64,000 nucleotides of DNA from NCBI GenBank assembly GCA_002280725.1, contig NCEM01000009.1, positions 88,863-152,862 of the forward strand, written 5' to 3'. Positions 43,560-51,208 of this stretch are shown one piece after another (positions within the stretch are counted from its first letter, which is position 1; each line of letters begins with the position of its first letter). The translations under genes were made by a program, and so were the position numbers. The notes under the pieces are model-generated. The model saw nothing but the letters and a program-made list of their open reading frames with translations, was not told where the DNA came from and searched no databases. Origin of the DNA: Alphaproteobacteria bacterium 32-64-14 (GTDB lineage: Bacteria; Pseudomonadota; Alphaproteobacteria; Caulobacterales; Hyphomonadaceae).

Positions 43560-44078
43560 CTAGAACGGAATCTCGTCGTCGAAATCGCCGCCGCGCGAGA
43601 AGTCTTCGGCCGGGCCCTTGCCGCCCTTGCCCTTCTGTCCGGCGCCGCGCGCAGGCGCGCGGTCCTGCCCACGATCTTGGTTGTACTCGCCGCGATCTCC
43701 ACCGGCGCCAGCGCCGCCGCCTTCATTGCGGCCGTCCAGCATGGTCAGCGTAGCGTTGAAGTTCCGCAGCACGACCTCGGTCGAGTATTTGTCGTTGCCG
43801 TCCTTGTCCTGCCACTTGCGGGTTTCGAGCGCGCCCTCGAGATAAACCTTCGCGCCCTTCTTGAGATACTGCTCGCAGATGCGCACCAGCCCCTCGTTGA
43901 ACACTACGACGCGGTGCCACTCGGTCTTTTCCTTGCGCTCGCCCGACGCTTTGTCGCGCCACGTCTCGGACGTCGCGATCGAAAGGTTGGCGAGGGAGGA
44001 GCCCGAGGGCATCTGCTTGATTTCGGGATCCCGGCCCAGATTGCCGATGAGGATCACCTTGTTGACCGATCCGGCCAT
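43560..44078 (-). CDS. ssb: Single-stranded DNA-binding protein
   Basis: A 172-residue SSB: the OB-fold (about 1-112) begins [20 protein letters not shown] and has [24 protein letters not shown] and [21 protein letters not shown] Gly/Arg/Gln-rich disordered linker follows, then the acidic C-terminal tip DFDDEIPF that recruits repair and replication partners. The start at 44078 gives [13 protein letters not shown] LexA-type box (GTTC-N7-GTTC) lies 181 bases upstream, indicating SOS control. ssb is usually divergent from uvrA; here 4.2 kb of accessory genes lie between. Confidence 0.97.
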
Positions 44079-44416
44079 TGTCGTCTCCGTTTGCTCTCCG
44101 GCCCCGATTGCCTTCCGCAACCGCTCCGGTTCCTGACACAGGACAGGAATACTAGGGCGGCCCGTCATTCCGCGCGACACGGGCAAGCCGCCTTCGCCAA
44201 ACCAAGCTGTGGAGCCATTTGCATGTCCACAAGATGGTCGCCGAACGGGCTGGACAGTGTTCGTCATTTGTTCTTTCACAGAACCGACGCCGGCGCAAGC
44301 TAGTGTTTCTGTCACGACCGGTCCTCGCCCTGCCCTCCACTTCCAGTCTCGGAGCGCCGATTAGCCCCCGGCGCCTGGGTGGTCCCTGAAGCGGAGGTGG
44401 GCGGGGACCGTAGCGG
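44079..44416. other. Intergenic region upstream of ssb
   Basis: No gene is supported in these 338 bases. It contains a LexA-type box at 44259-44273 and a short inverted repeat (TTCCTG ... CAGGAA) around 44128-44147. The rest shows nothing recognisable. Confidence 0.7.
44259..44273 (+). promoter_or_regulatory. LexA (SOS) box upstream of ssb
   Basis: GTTC-GTCATTT-GTTC matches the alphaproteobacterial LexA consensus GTTC-N7-GTTC exactly. It is followed by TTTCAC, as in the uvrA box. The direct repeat can act in either orientation; ssb is the nearest downstream gene, on the minus strand. Confidence 0.75.
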
Positions 44417-44698
44417 CTAGTTGTGGCCAGGTCGGTTCTCCGGAACGAACTCGGCGCCCAGCCAGCGCGTCCCGGCCTTGATCACCCACTGATTTGCCGG
44501 ATGGTTCAGCCACTCCATGGCTTTCTGCTCAGCGATCTCGGCTGTCGGCCACCGGCCATGGCCGTCGATCTTCCCCTTGGGATGCTGAACGCCCGCGTCC
44601 GACATGAACGCCCGAGCATTCCACCACGTGTTCAGCCAGTAGCCGCGGCCCGGGCGCGCCAGCTTTCGTTTCGTTGCTGTGACGATCTTCGTGGACAT
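44417..44698 (-). CDS. Hypothetical protein, 93 aa
   Basis: A small basic, Trp-rich protein (MSTKIVTATKRKLARPGRGY, then WLNTWWNARAF, EWLNHPANQW, RWLGAEF). The start is set by a strong GGAGGG ribosome site. No signal peptide or membrane segment. No family is recognised. It lies downstream of the DUF4287 gene on the same strand, 79 bases away. Confidence 0.68.
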   Translation of the reverse strand: MSTKIVTATKRKLARPGRGYWLNTWWNARAFMSDAGVQHPKGKIDGHGRWPTAEIAEQKAMEWLNHPANQWVIKAGTRWLGAEFVPENRPGHN

Positions 44699-44777
44699 GC
44701 CTGACCCTCCTTCCGGAAGCCCCACGCCCCTTCCAGAAGCGAAGTCTTGTCCCTTCCCGAGTCGCTCGGCCAGCGCC

Positions 44778-45338
44778 TTATGCAGCGTCGTAGGCCTGCT
44801 TCAGCCAGGCCTTCACCTCGGCGTCGATATCCGCCGGGGTGGCCAGCTTCACGCGATGCGTACACATCGCGTTCCACGACCCCGACGCCTCAAGCCGTCC
44901 CGCCGGCGCGACGCCCTTCAGGTTAAGCCCGAGATCGAGGCGCGTCGCCGTCGATGGCTGGATCAGTCCGAACTGTTTGGACCGGCGCAACGACACGTAA
45001 GCCTTCTTCGGCGAGAACTCGACGTCCTTGCCGAAACCCTCGACCATCTTCGCCAGCTTGTCATAGGCCGGCTTCAGCACAGCCTTCGCGCCGGCGTACT
45101 GCGCCGACACCAGATCTTCCCCATCGCTGCTGCCCGCGTCGGACGCCAGCGCTTTGTGCGCCACGAGATTGGCGAAGCCATGACCCAGCGCATGATCCGC
45201 CTTCAGCATCGCGACGATCTCGCCGTGCTTCGCCAGCTTCGTCTTCGCGACGATCTTCAGCCATGCCTCCAGCGTCTTGCCGGTCTTCTCCGGCATATTG
45301 GCGATCATGCTGGCGGTTGCGTCTTCTACCTTGCCCAT
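44778..45338 (-). CDS. DUF4287 and DUF5655 domain protein
   Basis: A 186-residue cytoplasmic protein. The N-terminal part (ASMIANMPEKTGKTLEAWLK, HALGHGFANLVAHKAL) matches DUF4287; the C-terminal part (AYDKLAKMVEGFGKDVEFSP, AYVSLRRSKQFGLIQPSTAT, LDLGLNLKG) matches DUF5655, as commonly paired. GGGAG precedes the ATG at 45338. A related fold is found in transport-associated or nuclease-associated proteins, but function is unknown. A pair of GTTATCGA repeats lies just upstream. Confidence 0.85.
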   Translation of the reverse strand: MGKVEDATASMIANMPEKTGKTLEAWLKIVAKTKLAKHGEIVAMLKADHALGHGFANLVAHKALASDAGSSDGEDLVSAQYAGAKAVLKPAYDKLAKMVEGFGKDVEFSPKKAYVSLRRSKQFGLIQPSTATRLDLGLNLKGVAPAGRLEASGSWNAMCTHRVKLATPADIDAEVKAWLKQAYDAA

Positions 45339-45356
45339 GACGTCTCCCCTTTTGTG

Positions 45357-45386
45357 GTTATCGAAATTGCCCGTACTTGTTATCGA
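45357..45386. promoter_or_regulatory. Direct-repeat pair upstream of the DUF4287 gene
   Basis: GTTATCGA occurs at 45357-45364 and 45379-45386, 22 bases apart, beginning 19 bases upstream of the DUF4287 gene's start. The spacing of two helical turns suggests an operator. Confidence 0.35.
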
Positions 45387-45472
45387 CGCCAGATGTCGCG
45401 CGTTGCTTGAAATGTGGCGATAGGGCGCCGTTTTGCCTGCCCCTCTGTCAACGGAACGATCCTGCCCGCGAA

Positions 45473-45509
45473 GCATTTGCTTGCCGGAATGGGCATTTGA
45501 TTGCCGGAA
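45473..45509. promoter_or_regulatory. 17-base direct repeats, 20-base period
   Basis: GCATTTG(C/A)TTGCCGGAA occurs at 45473-45489 and 45493-45509, differing at one base, 18 bases upstream of the glycine-zipper gene's start. Two helical turns apart, it looks like a tandem binding site overlapping the promoter. Confidence 0.5.
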
Positions 45510-45527
45510 CATAACAGGAGCTTCCCC

Positions 45528-45926
45528 ATGACAAACGCTGGCTTGCTTGCTGCCGGATTCGCTGGCGCAGCCCTGCTGACTGTCGGCGTCGGCTTCGCCA
45601 TGAGCAACAACTCCCCCGCGCTGCTTGATAACCGCGCCGCCATCGCGTCGGCCGATGATGCCCCGCGCGGCATGAGCGAGGCCGATATGGAGGCGCGCAT
45701 CGCTGATGAACGCGCCGCCGCGAACGCGCGCGCCAACGCCAAGATCGCTTGCGAAAAGCGCCGCCAGGAAGCGTCCAACCAGGGCGCCGTTGTCGGCGGC
45801 GTGGCCGGCGCCGTGATCGGCAGCAACGTTGCCGGCAAGGGCGCGAAATCCGAAGGCGGCGTGATCGGCGCCCTCGCTGGCGCCACCGTCGGCCGCGACA
45901 TCGCCAAGGAAGATCATCGCTGCTGA
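45528..45926 (+). CDS. Glycine-zipper 2TM-type membrane protein
   Basis: A 132-residue protein. A hydrophobic N-terminal segment (LLAAGFAGAALLTVGVGFAM) is a signal anchor or signal peptide. An acidic/Ala-rich helical part (SEADMEARIADERAAANARA) precedes the glycine zipper GAVVGGVAGAVIGSNVAGKG and GGVIGALAGATVGRDIA. Glycine-zipper proteins insert in or stabilise the outer membrane or envelope, sometimes under stress. AGGAG lies eight bases before the ATG. A terminator follows. Confidence 0.83.
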   Translation: MTNAGLLAAGFAGAALLTVGVGFAMSNNSPALLDNRAAIASADDAPRGMSEADMEARIADERAAANARANAKIACEKRRQEASNQGAVVGGVAGAVIGSNVAGKGAKSEGGVIGALAGATVGRDIAKEDHRC

Positions 45927-45961
45927 TCGCCTCCACAATTCCTCAACCTCCCCCCGCCTCG

Positions 45962-45996
45962 CGCCGCCCGTCTGATCAGACCGGGCGGCGTTTTTT
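45962..45996 (+). terminator. Intrinsic terminator after the glycine-zipper gene
   Basis: CGCCGCCCGTCTGA and TCAGACCGGGCGGCG pair with one bulged base, followed by TTTTTT. It ends at the stop of the convergent SRPBCC gene and may serve both. Confidence 0.85.
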
Positions 45997-46546
45997 ATTC
46001 CCGCTCCAGCGGCCAGTTCTCGATGCGGCAGGCCTTTGGCGTCATCCAGCCCATCAGCGCGTTCACCACGCCAACCATCTTGCCGGAGAAGGCGGGCTTG
46101 CCCGTTTCCACCAGCGCCTTGAGGTTCTGGATGATGAAGGGCCCGCCCTGCGCCATCGCCTTGCCGGACTTCGTGCCTGCGGGCACATTGGTCGTGATCA
46201 GCGAGAACTCCGTGCCTCCCGGCACTTCCTTCAACTCATACGTCACGGTTGAGGCCGCCTCACCGGGATAGCCGGTGAACGCCATCGTGTGCGAATAGCG
46301 ATACGGCGGCGAGAACTCGAGCACGTCGCCGACGACGCTGGCGAACTTGCCGTTCGGCGTCACCATCCGCATTTTGCGTCCGGGCTTCAGTCCGTCCTTC
46401 GTCTCGCACACCGCGCCAAAGAAGAACGGCAGAACGGCGTCTGTCTTCACCAGCGTGTTCCACACTGTCTCGATCGGCGCGTTGATCACGACCTTGTAGA
46501 TCTGCCTGCCGCCGCTTGCGGCGGTCGCCTTGGTGTCCCCGCTCAT
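45995..46546 (-). CDS. SRPBCC (AHSA1-like) protein
   Basis: A 183-residue START-like/Aha1-like protein: RQIYKVVINAPIETVWNTLV at the N-terminus, FFFGAVCETKDGLKPGRKMR, VLEFSPPYRYSHTMAF and TVTYELKEVPGGTEFSLITT. The start ATG overlaps the upstream ArsR-type regulator's stop (ATGA). This ArsR-SRPBCC pair is a very common bacterial two-gene unit; the SRPBCC protein probably binds a small hydrophobic ligand, but none is known. Confidence 0.9.
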   Translation of the reverse strand: MSGDTKATAASGGRQIYKVVINAPIETVWNTLVKTDAVLPFFFGAVCETKDGLKPGRKMRMVTPNGKFASVVGDVLEFSPPYRYSHTMAFTGYPGEAASTVTYELKEVPGGTEFSLITTNVPAGTKSGKAMAQGGPFIIQNLKALVETGKPAFSGKMVGVVNALMGWMTPKACRIENWPLERE

Positions 46547-46899
46547 TTGCCCGGCCCCTTCTTCGATTTCTGGAAAGCCGCCTCGGCGGCGTACTTGATG
46601 CCCGTAACCGTGCGCGCCCAATGCCCTGCGAAGTCATCCAGCCAGCGGTCGTTGATCATCTGGATCGGCGCCGCGTTGAGATAGAGCCGCCGCACCCGGC
46701 CGTCCTTCTCGGAGACGACAAGCCCCGCCTGCTCCAGTACGGCAATATGGTTCATCACCGCGATGCGCGTGACATCGAACTCCGCCGCCAGTTCTCCGAC
46801 GCCAATCCCAGGCCGCACTTTCAACACGTCCATGATCCGCCGCCGCGTCTCGTGTGCGAGCGCATGAAACACAGCCGTCATGTCGTCGTCAGCGGACAT
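46543..46899 (-). CDS. ArsR-family transcriptional regulator
   Basis: A 118-residue winged-helix repressor: MTAVFHALAHETRRRIMDVL, recognition region VGELAAEFDVTRIAVMNHIA, wing DGRVRRLYLN. No metal-binding CxC motif is present, so it is a non-metal ArsR member. It precedes, and is coupled to, an SRPBCC gene. A perfect inverted repeat overlaps its start codon and is its likely operator. Confidence 0.93.
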   Translation of the reverse strand: MSADDDMTAVFHALAHETRRRIMDVLKVRPGIGVGELAAEFDVTRIAVMNHIAVLEQAGLVVSEKDGRVRRLYLNAAPIQMINDRWLDDFAGHWARTVTGIKYAAEAAFQKSKKGPGK

Positions 46900-46919
46900 G
46901 TAATGATATGATTACATGT
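46896..46919. promoter_or_regulatory. ArsR-regulator operator
   Basis: ACATGTAAT and ATTACATGT are perfect 9-base inverted arms separated by GATATG. The left arm overlaps the ArsR-type gene's ATG, so binding would block transcription or translation start. A further ACATGTAAT direct copy overlaps the right arm (46914-46922). Confidence 0.7.
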
Positions 46920-46977
46920 AATGCGCGGAGTCAACCCGCAGCGTTGCGCAGCCGCCGCAGGCAGCCCGGACGAACAG

Positions 46978-47520
46978 TCACTTCATGCAGACAAAGCTCG
47001 ATACGCCATTGCGCGTGAGGAAAGTCAGACGCTCGGGCGCCGTGCACTTAATGTTGGCCGGTGGCGCCATCGGCGGCGTCCCGCACTTCATCTCCATCGC
47101 GCCCGTCACTTCCGTGCGCAGCATGATCTGCGGCGGAGAGCAGCCTGTGACGGACGGCGTTGGGGCGGGCGGAGGTGTCGGCGTCGGCGGCTTCGGCATT
47201 TGCGAGGGACCTCCCGTGACGGGTCGCGCCGGAGTCGGCGGCGGTGTCGCGGTTGGCGGCTTGGGCATCTGGCTGGGCCCGCCCGTCACGGGCGGTACGG
47301 GAGGCGCAGGATGCGCCGGGAACGACGATCCCATTGGCGGCATCGGCGGCGGCTGCATGCCCGGATTTCCCGGCATCGGCGACATCGGCGGGATCACGGA
47401 GCCAGCGCTCGCAACGCCCGTGTCGCCCATCATGTCGTCATAACCGCCCGGCGCCATGCCTTCGCAAGCTGCAAGCCCAAGCACGGCAGCCATCGCCGCC
47501 GCAGACAGCATCAGCCTCAT
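46978..47520 (-). CDS. Proline-rich lipoprotein
   Basis: A 180-residue lipoprotein with signal RLMLSAAAMAAVLGLAACEG. A Met two codons earlier is possible, but GAGGGG sits at a proper distance only for this start. A Pro/Met/Gly-rich middle carries a repeated unit, VTGGPSQMPKPPT, twice, joined by TATPPPTPARP. The C-terminal 55 residues have four cysteines (TGCSPP, MKCGTPP, IKCTAPE, SFVCMK). It may span the periplasm or peptidoglycan. No family is recognised. Confidence 0.8.
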   Translation of the reverse strand: MRLMLSAAAMAAVLGLAACEGMAPGGYDDMMGDTGVASAGSVIPPMSPMPGNPGMQPPPMPPMGSSFPAHPAPPVPPVTGGPSQMPKPPTATPPPTPARPVTGGPSQMPKPPTPTPPPAPTPSVTGCSPPQIMLRTEVTGAMEMKCGTPPMAPPANIKCTAPERLTFLTRNGVSSFVCMK

Positions 47521-47609
47521 CGTCATCCCCTCTTTCCATGTCCCATAGGCAGAGGATGCGCTGCAGCAGAAGCGAACGCAAGGCGACGCCGGCGCCCGAC
47601 GCTGCTACG

Positions 47610-48026
47610 TCAGGCGCCCTTCTTCGCCTTCGCCCGCCGCGCCGTGCACTTCGGGCAGAGACAGTTCTCCTTGCCGATGAAGGCGTCGAAATAGCTATTG
47701 CCGTAGTCGTAGGTGATCTCTTCGCCCGGCAGGATCTTGCGTAGCGACTTCACCCAGATCCGCCCGCCATAGACATAGATGATCCCATTGGGCGCGCACG
47801 AATGGTTCGCATAGCGTCCGACATTCGAGCGTGGCGATCCGTCCAGCGTGTGTGTCTTGTTGAGGTCGTAGAGATAGCGCGGCTTGCCCGGCATGGCGTC
47901 CGCTTCTTCATTCGTGATGATCTTGCCGGTGTACTCGAACACCCGCACCCCCTTCGGGATCTCCTCCGTGGCGAAGAGACCAAGGCCGGTCGTTGCGCGG
48001 CCGATGCGGAAGGGATGTTTGGGCAT
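47610..48026 (-). CDS. Small SET-domain protein
   Basis: A 138-residue protein that is almost only a SET domain: GLGLFATEEIPKGVRVFEYT, the SAM/lysine pocket RYANHSCAPNG, the catalytic-Tyr segment GEEITYDYG, and a post-SET-like CLCPKC. The start MPKHPFRIGRATT is set by domain alignment. SET proteins methylate lysine; bacterial members are scattered and their targets mostly unknown. It sits upstream of, and divergent from, uvrA. Confidence 0.9.
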   Translation of the reverse strand: MPKHPFRIGRATTGLGLFATEEIPKGVRVFEYTGKIITNEEADAMPGKPRYLYDLNKTHTLDGSPRSNVGRYANHSCAPNGIIYVYGGRIWVKSLRKILPGEEITYDYGNSYFDAFIGKENCLCPKCTARRAKAKKGA

Positions 48027-48172
48027 GGAGGAGGCCCTACCTGCGGATTCGCCTGCTTTCAATTCCGGCAATCGCCACGCCCGCCCCGTTTCAGCTTCTG
48101 CTGCGTTCTCTGGCCGCTGCTGCCACTCCCCCGGCAGCAAGCCGCTGCAGGAACCGTGGACGAAGCGCCGCT

Positions 48173-48187
48173 GTTCCTTTTTCGTTC
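48173..48187 (+). promoter_or_regulatory. LexA (SOS) box upstream of uvrA
   Basis: GTTC-CTTTTTC-GTTC matches the GTTC-N7-GTTC LexA consensus, 69 bases before the uvrA ATG. It is followed by TTTCAC, as in the ssb box. Confidence 0.8.
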
Positions 48188-48256
48188 TTTCACGTGTAAT
48201 CGACTCACCGCACCCCTATCTGGCAAGAAACGCTGAACCCAGCCTCCCGGTAGAAC

Positions 48257-51208
48257 ATGTCATCCGAACCTAACGCCATCCGCGTGCGCGGCGCCCGCGA
48301 GCACAATCTCAAGAACGTGGATGTCGACATCCCGCGCAACCAGCTCGTGGTCATCACGGGCCTGTCGGGGTCCGGCAAATCCTCCCTGGCGTTCGACACG
48401 ATCTACGCCGAGGGCCAGCGCCGCTATGTCGAGTCGCTCTCGGCCTACGCCCGCCAGTTCCTCGAACTGATGCAGAAGCCGGATGTGGAGCGGATCGAAG
48501 GCCTCTCCCCCGCCATCTCGATCGAGCAGAAGACCACCTCCCGCAACCCGCGCTCCACGGTCGGCACGGTCACCGAAGTCTACGACTACATGCGCCTGCT
48601 GTGGGCGCGCGTCGGCGTTCCCTATTCGCCCGCCACCGGCCTCCCCATCGAAAGCCAGACCGTCAGCCAGATGGTCGACAAGACGATGGCCTTCGGCGAC
48701 GGCGCCAAGTTCCACCTGCTCGCGCCCATGATCCGCGGCCGCAAGGGCGAATACCGCAAGGAGTTCGCAGACCTGCTGAAGCGCGGCTTTGCCCGCGTGA
48801 AGGTCGATGGCGAGTACTACGAACTGGAAGACCCGCCCAAGCTCGACAAGAAGCTGAAGCACGACATCGACGTAGTGGTGGATCGCATCGTCATCCGCGC
48901 CGGCCTCGAACAGCGCTTGGCCGAAAGCTTCGAAGCCGCGCTCGGCCTCGCAGACGGCATCGCCGTCGCCGAGTTCGCAGACAAGGATCCGGAAACGAAG
49001 GAGCCCAAGCGCATCACCTTCTCCGCCAAGTTCGCCTGCCCCGTCTCCGGCTTCACCATCCCGGAGATCGAGCCGCGCCTGTTCTCGTTCAACAACCCCT
49101 TCGGCGCCTGCCCCGCCTGCGACGGCCTCGGCGAGCAGCTGAAGATCGACCCGAACCTCGTCGTCCCCGAAACCGACAAGGCGCTCGGCGATGGCGCCAT
49201 CGCGCCGTGGGGCAAGTCGGCCTCCCCGCTTCAGGAACAGACGCTCAAGGCGCTCGCAAAGAAGTACAAGTTCTCGCTCACGGTTCCCTGGAACAAGCTG
49301 CCGGAGGCCGTGCACGACATCATCCTGAATGGCACGGGCGAGGAAGAAGTCGATTTCGTCTTCGACGACGGCGTCCGCCGCTACGAAGTGACGAAACCGT
49401 TCGAAGGCGTCGTCGGCAATCTTGAGCGCCGTTTCCGCGAAACCGACAGCGCCTGGATGCGCGAGGAAATAGGCCGCTACCAGTCCGCCGCGCCCTGCCC
49501 CACCTGCATGGGCGAACGCCTGCGCCCCGAAGCGCTCAGCGTGAAGATCAACAACTTCACCATCTCCAACGCCACGCACCTGTCGATCCGCCTCGCGCGC
49601 GACTGGTTCGAGGCGCTGCCCAAGAAGCTGACGAAAAAGCAGAACGAGATCGCGACCCGCATCCTCAAGGAAATCCGCGATCGTCTGCAATTCCTCAACG
49701 ATGTCGGCCTCGACTATCTCTCGCTCTCGCGCGCCTCGGGCACGCTGTCCGGCGGCGAAAGCCAACGCATCCGCCTTGCTTCGCAGATAGGCTCGGGTCT
49801 CTCCGGCGTCCTCTACGTGCTCGACGAACCTTCCATCGGCCTGCACCAGCGCGACAACGAACGCCTGCTCGGCACGCTCAAGCGCCTTCGCGATCTCGGC
49901 AACTCCGTCATTGTGGTGGAACACGATGAGGATGCGATCCTCACCGCCGACCACGTCATCGACATGGGCCCCCGCGCGGGCGTCAACGGCGGCGAAGTCA
50001 TCGGCTTCGGCTCGGCTGAAGACTTGATGGCCAACGAACGCTCCATCACAGGCAAGTACCTCTCCGGCGAGGAAGAGATCGCCATCCCCGAAAAACGCCG
50101 CTGGGCTGACAAGAAGAAGATGATCCGCGTCATCGGCGCGACGGGCAACAACCTCAAGAACGTCACCGCCGAAATCCCGCTCGGCGTCTTCACGTGCGTC
50201 ACCGGCGTGTCCGGCGGCGGCAAGTCCACGCTCATCATCGAGACGCTCTACAAGGCCCTCGCCCGTCGCCTCAACGGCGCCAGCGATGGCCCCGCGCCGC
50301 ACCAGAAGATCGAAGGCATCGAACACCTCGACAAGATCATCGACATCGACCAGTCGCCCATCGGCCGCACGCCGCGCTCCAACCCCGCGACCTACACCGG
50401 CGCCTTCGGCCCGATCCGCGACTGGTACACCGGCCTCCCCGAAGCCAAGGCGCGCGGCTATCAGGCCGGCCGCTTCTCCTTCAACGTGAAGGGCGGCCGC
50501 TGCGAGGCGTGCCAGGGCGATGGTGTCGTCAAGATCGAGATGCACTTCCTGCCCGACGTCTACGTCACCTGTGATGTCTGCAAGGGCAAGCGCTACAACC
50601 GCGAAACGCTCGAAGTGCTCTACAAGGGCAAGTCGATCGCAGACGTGCTGGATCTCACCGTCGAGGAAGCCCGCGTTTTCTTCGGCGCCGTCCCCGGCAT
50701 CCGCGGCAAGATGGAAACGCTCTGCCGCGTCGGCCTCGGCTATGTGAAGGTCGGCCAGCAGGCCACGACGCTCTCGGGCGGCGAAGCCCAGCGCGTCAAA
50801 CTCGCCAAGGAACTGTCCAAGCGCGCCACCGGCCGCACCATGTACATCCTCGACGAGCCCACCACCGGCCTCCACTTCGATGACACACGCACGCTGATGG
50901 AAGTGCTGCAGGAGTTGGTCGACGCCGGCAACACCGTGGTCGTCATCGAGCACAACCTCGACGTCATCAAGGTCGCCGACTGGATCATCGACATGGGCCC
51001 CGACGGCGGCGATGGCGGCGGCCAGCTCGTCGCAGTCGGGACGCCGGAGGACGTTGCAAAGAACAAGGCCAGCCACACCGGCCGCTTCCTCGTCGAAACC
51101 TTCAAGCGCCAGGAAGAGCGCCGTGCGCGTCAGGCCAAGCGCGCGAAGACTGCGCCCGCCAAGGCCGCAGCGAAGGCAAAGAAAACGACGCGGCAGGCGG
51201 CCGAGTAG
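48257..51208 (+). CDS. uvrA: Excinuclease ABC subunit A
   Basis: A 983-residue damage-recognition ATPase of nucleotide-excision repair. Both ABC halves are complete: Walker [11 protein letters not shown] near residue 36 and [10 protein letters not shown] near 655; signature [20 protein letters not shown] and [20 protein letters not shown]; Walker [13 protein letters not shown] and [12 protein letters not shown]. Zinc modules are seen in CPACDG and in [20 protein letters not shown]. The C-terminus is a Lys/Ala-rich tail. UvrA with UvrB finds bulky lesions. A LexA box upstream indicates SOS induction. Confidence 0.98.

Follow-up and report, generated by a model that had tools for sequence, protein, structure and literature searches.

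Separate LexA-type boxes beside ssb and uvrA in an alphaproteobacterial genome suggest duplication and partition of a shared operator

The region between ssb and uvrA was analyzed in a 64-kb stretch of DNA (hereafter the window; G000:C8:88863-152862) from the 3.86-Mb draft genome, in 98 contigs, of Alphaproteobacteria bacterium 32-64-14, a member of the Hyphomonadaceae. In the window, ssb (minus strand) and uvrA (plus strand) are divergent with a start-to-start gap of 4178 bp, and each gene has its own LexA-type box, with seven open reading frames (ORFs) lying between the two boxes. Comparison with related loci suggested that duplication and partition of one operator probably preceded insertion, and did so several times, because regions with two boxes and no insert exist and because the box copies have lost flanking elements. 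The account as a whole, in which an operator was duplicated, the copies underwent complementary loss and genes were inserted later, is considered fairly likely. In the ancestor, some 200 bp would have separated the divergent ssb and uvrA, and a single LexA operator would have lain inside two overlapping, opposed promoters. The operator and its immediate edge would then have been duplicated, and each copy would have kept what its own gene needs while losing what the other gene needs. With promoters that no longer overlapped, DNA could have been inserted between them without removing either gene from the SOS regulon. In the genus of the window, small genes would have accumulated there as a block of changing composition. 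At both ends LexA would bind the box, repress the gene and be released on DNA damage.

The alphaproteobacterial LexA motif is GTTC-N7-GTTC, and the window holds only two exact matches to it, which lie on the plus strand at 44259 and 48173. Both boxes read towards uvrA and continue into TTTCAC, giving the common 10-base end GTTCTTTCAC, and a repeat search returned them as a 22-nt direct repeat with 82% identity. A first-pass annotation of this DNA had described two such boxes beside ssb and uvrA with seven genes between the two, and both points were confirmed, the former by exact matching and the latter by the ORFs, five of which have a Pfam match. The bare matches are not significant in number, as 1.73 were expected per shuffled window, at least two occurred in 55 of 100 shuffles, and the whole genome contained 82 matches against 84 for the reversed control pattern. 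The boxes are instead considered meaningful because both fall upstream of ssb and uvrA, with congener boxes at matching places. Furthermore, in this genome the motif precedes lexA, recN, imuA, rmuC, comM, ruvB and parE (of these, a search confirmed lexA and the others were named by eye from translation starts), and it is therefore a plausible LexA operator here. The lexA gene lies on the window's own contig (G000:C8:169071) with the box just upstream. The expected number of matches and the lack of a genome-wide excess over the control pattern fit the alternative that the boxes are chance matches and that one or both are not LexA operators; this is hardly plausible, given that both stand where relatives keep exact boxes, that the same pattern occurs before lexA, recN, imuA, ruvB and comM, and that a lexA gene, itself preceded by a box, is present in the genome. 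Judged from these sequences, LexA most likely occupies both boxes and represses ssb and uvrA independently of each other, one box having formerly served both, and the two genes are probably both still damage-inducible in the window.

The spacing of ssb and uvrA in relatives, which the first-pass annotation had singled out for comparison, was read at 185 loci, comprising 108 from searches of genomes (82 of the 105 found for the family, and 16 of the same order) and 77 named public loci, after three named duplicates had been dropped. Loci with a gap of at most 450 bp were scored as compact and those with a gap above 700 bp as split. By this measure 82 loci were compact, 60 were split, one fell between, and 42 were unlinked or cut by contig ends. 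The usual state in the family and order is a divergent pair 126-450 bp apart with one box in the window's orientation, and at 64 of the 82 compact loci a single exact box counts for both genes, which bears out the idea of that annotation that a divergent pair with a shared box was ancestral. The shared box in the family lies about 125 bp from ssb and about 90 bp from uvrA, and its surrounding consensus is ATGTTCACATTTTGTTCTTGTCGTCAAGCTGGACTC. Its further idea that a box was kept beside both genes after separation also held, since at 49 of the 60 split loci both ssb and uvrA are accompanied by an exact box, with the ancestral orientation kept. In addition, ssb and uvrA are convergent and about 26 kb apart in G001 (C3) and G005 (C138), each gene keeping a box, and lie on different contigs in G025, G029, G033 and G037, all of one family of the order; an exact box is found at each gene in five of these six genomes, and the ssb box of G037 has one mismatch.

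The distribution of the split state was evaluated on trees, where changes may run in either direction and are not counts of insertions. Among 87 genomes of the order 14 changes were needed, five of them forced by strongly supported branches, and among 56 other alphaproteobacterial loci six changes were needed, four of them forced. The inserts in other lineages are unrelated to one another and include a fatty-acid hydroxylase, PAP2, VIT1, FMO and an outer-membrane barrel protein. Fatty-acid hydroxylase and PAP2 families recur as inserts at this site in different genera, surrounded by compact congeners (G059, G058, G066, G106, G021 and G018, G110, G111, G082, G073, G043), as though this cargo had arrived repeatedly or been passed from one genus to another.

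The orientation from ssb to uvrA was kept by 233 of the 234 exact boxes near the two genes. An orientation imposed by LexA or by the promoter was considered as the cause and rejected, because both orientations occur at recA boxes and, in this genome, among the other boxed genes, the box being codirectional with recN, comM, ruvB and parE and opposed to lexA, imuA and rmuC. As a separate observation, no exact GTTC-N7-GTTC was present in the 400 bp before the matched recA start at 24 of 30 loci of the order (L217-L246). The uniform orientation bears on the explanation that insertion came first, beside a single box, and that the gene left without an operator later regained a box by point mutation under selection. 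New boxes would then be expected in either orientation, yet all but one have the ancestral one.

Two exact boxes with no gene between them were found in the compact gap of six genomes, namely G061, G053, G049, G062 and G045 (g4) and G084 (g5), whereas 0.79 such cases were expected by chance over all 82 compact loci. In G063, G019 and G070 the second box has one mismatch; these three were coded as two-box in the 87-genome tree and counted as shared in the flank class counts given below. In G065, a further candidate, the first of the matches lies 11 bp from the ssb ATG and was rejected as a chance match in a conserved leader; G042 has this match with one mismatch. This match was left out of the flank counts and the 87-genome tree, and G065 is still tallied as two-box in the locus table because the match, although outside the ssb-side window, lies within 260 bp of uvrA. 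In the 87-genome tree, four of the six two-box compact genomes fall in a clade with 95% Shimodaira–Hasegawa-like approximate likelihood ratio test (SH-aLRT) support together with G055, G056, G059 and G060, which have a single fatty-acid-hydroxylase gene between the boxes. This clade is most simply read as a doubling of the operator followed by arrival of the gene. In the G059 group and in L285-L288, the inserted hydroxylase ORF, as called, extends over the ssb-side box with its 3' end, and operator and coding sequence therefore seem to overlap. The first-pass annotation had proposed an insertion into the shared promoter accompanied by duplication of the box; a single insertion that duplicated the box at the same time is not the most likely history, given that several lineages have two-box regions with no inserted gene. 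The same regions also speak against an origin of the second box after insertion.

Traces of the duplication itself were sought by comparing individual genomes with close single-box relatives. In G048 and G045 the ssb end is homologous from the ssb start through the box and CGTCAAG, and the uvrA end is homologous from the box through TTGTCG, GGACTC and CACACAT to uvrA. Therefore, the box and about 10 bases (about 25 bp) are present twice in these genomes, each copy with its old outer flank, which is not what insertion followed by point mutation would give. In G082 the uvrA end is almost identical to that of G112 from the box rightwards, and the ssb end has a box with a weakly matched flank. The remaining aligned pairs were less clear, and the ssb ends of G111 and G066 could not be aligned. 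The box core is thus present at both ends, clearly in G048 and G045 and more weakly in G082, and the proposal of the first-pass annotation stands in outline.

The partition of flanking elements was evaluated within the family by comparing 43 shared boxes, 31 ssb-side copies and 35 uvrA-side copies. GTCAA at +6 to +10 right of the box is present in 39 of 43 shared regions and in 2 of 35 uvrA copies, so that the uvrA copies have shed this element of ssb, which suggests that GTCAA is needed neither by uvrA nor by LexA. The ssb copies in turn have shed the uvrA elements: GANTC in the uvrA promoter region (39/43 shared, 34/35 uvrA copies) and TTGTCG (24/43 and 14/35) are both absent from all 31 ssb copies. 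CACA behaves likewise, with 30 of 43 shared regions, no ssb copy and 23 of 35 uvrA copies. GTCAA is TTGAC on the ssb strand and resembles a -35 element; both TTGAC and TTGTCG were taken as -35 elements from the promoter consensus. Among the lexA boxes listed, 11 of 14 have GTCAA in the adjoining stretch, and most of them also run against the gene. In the window's genus, (G/T)CAAG occurs right of the box in all 12 listed ssb-side regions with an exact box, and the window's GCAAG is a possible -35-like element of ssb. Moreover, the conserved GANTC is of the CcrM type, and uvrA may therefore be under joint SOS and cell-cycle (GcrA/CcrM) control. The targets of GcrA in Brucella found by chromatin immunoprecipitation (ChIP), as given in the available part of PMC6813329, include lexA and uvrA.

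Several observations weigh against duplication and partition before insertion. Retention of GTCAA by the ssb copies is poor, since it is in place in 2 of 31, anywhere to the right in 4 of 31 and on the other side of the box in 13 of 31, and it lies left of the box in no shared region; the 13 copies with GTCAA on the opposite side therefore speak for a rebuilt element and against simple retention. Both copies have dropped what belongs to the other gene, but ssb has often had its promoter reconstructed. Relatedness is ignored in the Fisher comparison of flank elements, so its P values overstate the differences, and the trees were of a "quick" kind with many forks open, as seen in the 14 changes against five forced and six against four. 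The two-box compact regions could also be former inserts after loss of the gene. Among these regions, no homology between the promoter copies was found beyond 9 bp of exact match, and de novo gain of a box is a possibility in most lineages because the copies share no long homology beyond the box and about 10 bp. At 11 of the 60 split loci an exact box is missing beside at least one of the genes, 10 being boxed on one side only (G014, G002, G018, G067, G110, G073, L140, L149, L165 and L199) and one on neither. Within the window's genus, G002 (L079) and G014 (L078) have a VIT-family gene and keep the ssb box, with no exact uvrA box. No two-box compact relative was found in this genus, and in the sister genus G023 the genes are 318 bp apart, with a single box that has a mismatch.

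Insertion before acquisition of the second box draws on part of this evidence: an 8-base motif is easily made, one-mismatch boxes are frequent in these regions, the two copies lack long homology, and some split loci are boxed on one side only. It is nonetheless judged unlikely, in view of the uniform orientation, the two-box regions without inserted genes in several lineages and the box with its edge at both ends in G048 and G045. We infer the same order, duplication and then insertion, for the window's own lineage.

The window's genus shows the end state alone, with gaps of 1.1 to 4.5 kb or wide separation. An exact box beside ssb in the same orientation is present in the congeners readable there (G004 through its named copy L137). 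Beside uvrA, the congeners read there have an exact box at a distance of 84-99 bp; G002 and G014 are the exceptions, and in these two uvrA may, to judge from the missing box, have left the SOS regulon. In the sister genus, the recA match at G023:C1:2750137-2751092 is in pieces with two in-frame TGA codons, reflecting either a broken gene or a sequence error.

The gene block proper extends over 44417-48026, slightly less than the box-to-box span of 44259-48187 (Table 1). The congeners contradict a fresh insertion: several of them carry, in the corresponding region and with differing losses and additions, members of a set of five of its seven genes (DUF4287, glycine zipper, AHSA1, ArsR and SET), indicating that the block is old and changing. 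The glycine-zipper gene is present, whole or in part, in G007, G010, G008, G009, G006, G004 and G003, and the ArsR-type gene accompanies the AHSA1 gene in relatives. In G007, G013, G011, G001, G005, G006, G004 and G003 the SET gene stands either in the ssb–uvrA interval or upstream of uvrA, and in G009 it lies beyond ssb on its contig. Among the block genes, G013 keeps only SET and G008 only the glycine-zipper gene. The SET gene of the window is 147 bp from the uvrA-side box and may now be LexA-controlled.

Table 1. Features of the ssb–uvrA region, in window coordinates.
Feature	Position	Strand	Evidence and remarks
ssb	43563..44078, stop 43560-43562	-	Pfam SSB, E 6.2e-37; single strong match in genome
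ssb-side LexA-type box GTTCGTCATTTGTTC	44259..44273	+	Exact GTTC-N7-GTTC; points away from ssb; 181 bp from ssb ATG
GCAAG (CTTGC on ssb strand)	44295..44299	+	Conserved, 20-25 bp right of ssb-side box
93-aa ORF	44420..44698	-	No Pfam match; co-directional with ssb; not found in congener regions
DUF4287 + DUF5655 protein	44781..45338	-	Pfam; present in G007, G010, G009, G004
Glycine-zipper protein	45528..45923	+	Pfam Rick_17kDa_Anti, E 1.2e-7
AHSA1 / SRPBCC-type protein	45998..46543	-	Pfam AHSA1, E 6.8e-18; in G007, G010, G009, G006, G004
ArsR-type helix-turn-helix regulator	46546..46899	-	Pfam HTH_20, E 5.3e-11; 2 bp upstream of AHSA1 gene
Proline-rich, lipoprotein-like ORF	46981..47526	-	No Pfam match; not found in congener regions
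SET-domain protein	47613..48026	-	Pfam SET, E 1.6e-23; now divergent neighbour of uvrA
uvrA-side LexA-type box GTTCCTTTTTCGTTC	48173..48187	+	Exact GTTC-N7-GTTC; 84 bp from uvrA ATG
GACTC (GANTC) in uvrA promoter region	48202..48206	+	14 bp after uvrA-side box
uvrA	48257..51205, stop 51206-51208	+	ORF list, genome search

A reading of the common 10-base end of the two boxes as a scar of the duplication was considered and rejected. The window's uvrA box is in register with most congeners' boxes relative to GACTC, and these orthologous boxes mostly end differently at the same spacing, with TTTCCC in G013, CGCCC in G008 and TTGGC, TTTGCC or TTCCG in others. Because the TTTCAC end at uvrA is shared with G007 only, the 10-base match is not a dependable trace of the original duplication. 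Block genes thus occur in congeners together with differing boxes, a finding that the first-pass annotation had named as refuting, so that the 10-base clue fails and the wider idea of a duplicated operator survives.

An explanation by a mobile element that inserted in one step, with the box inside its target-site duplication, comes near the original proposal of the first-pass annotation. In its favour, the box with its edge is the outermost direct repeat of the block; the repeat is the box itself. The explanation is very unlikely, since the ORFs, Pfam matches, transfer RNA (tRNA) search and guanine-plus-cytosine (GC) content revealed no integrase, transposase, tRNA or unusual composition in the block, the inserts elsewhere are unrelated metabolic or envelope genes, two-box regions without an insert exist, and the block varies piecemeal between congeners. 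A recent mobile insertion was rejected on the same grounds, as no recombinase, tRNA or GC shift was found in the block and its genes are shared piecemeal by congeners.

Divergent gene pairs under one operator are common, and how they separate without losing control is rarely visible. Here, close relatives in several lineages preserve the start (one box), the middle (two boxes and no insert) and the end (two boxes with one to many genes between them), and a general question of promoter evolution is therefore testable with small reporter constructs. More broadly, we advance as a tentative proposal that duplication with complementary loss could be a general, repeated alphaproteobacterial route out of an overlapping bidirectional promoter, one that would turn a locked 200-bp region into a safe landing zone, where genes beside a box, such as SET in the window, may join the SOS response. 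The consequence for the window itself is modest, and the genes between its boxes deserve a check.

The LexA motif of E. coli is of the enterobacterial type. In E. coli, according to the accessible text of PMC9505508, divergent ssb and uvrA have one LexA box between them that is able to control both. The likeness to the window is a divergent pair under a LexA box; the E. coli pair has one box and nothing between, whereas the window has two boxes of the alphaproteobacterial type and seven genes between, and it does not fit the shared divergent promoter with one box and adjacent genes. In Caulobacter, the available part of PMC12700426 describes uvrA as an SOS-induced, late SOS gene and also gives GTTC-N7-GTTC, the same motif as in the window, and that part does not treat ssb/uvrA spacing or division of the operator. 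For Brucella, the accessible portion of PMC6813329 suggests that the SOS response may decrease uvrA instead of increasing it, and uvrA induction is therefore not to be assumed in every alphaproteobacterium. Bidirectional bacterial promoters, in which two opposed promoters occupy one short stretch as in the ancestral state proposed here, have been treated for their activity and regulation (PMC12825309), and the abstract of that work does not cover how such promoters come apart. Searches of openly licensed PubMed Central papers listed nothing on division of the ssb/uvrA operator, subscription papers on the alphaproteobacterial SOS regulon being outside the search, and provisionally this route for splitting a bidirectional promoter is apparently undescribed. 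A formal parallel is the duplication-degeneration-complementation model for duplicate genes, in which copies lose complementary elements. The likeness lies in the complementary loss in two copies; the difference is that here an operator with overlapping promoter edges, not a gene, is duplicated, and that in-place retention on the ssb side is rare. The parts are all of known kinds. What is new is the repeated path from a shared to a divided operator with surviving middle stages, and the window is an ordinary end point of this path.

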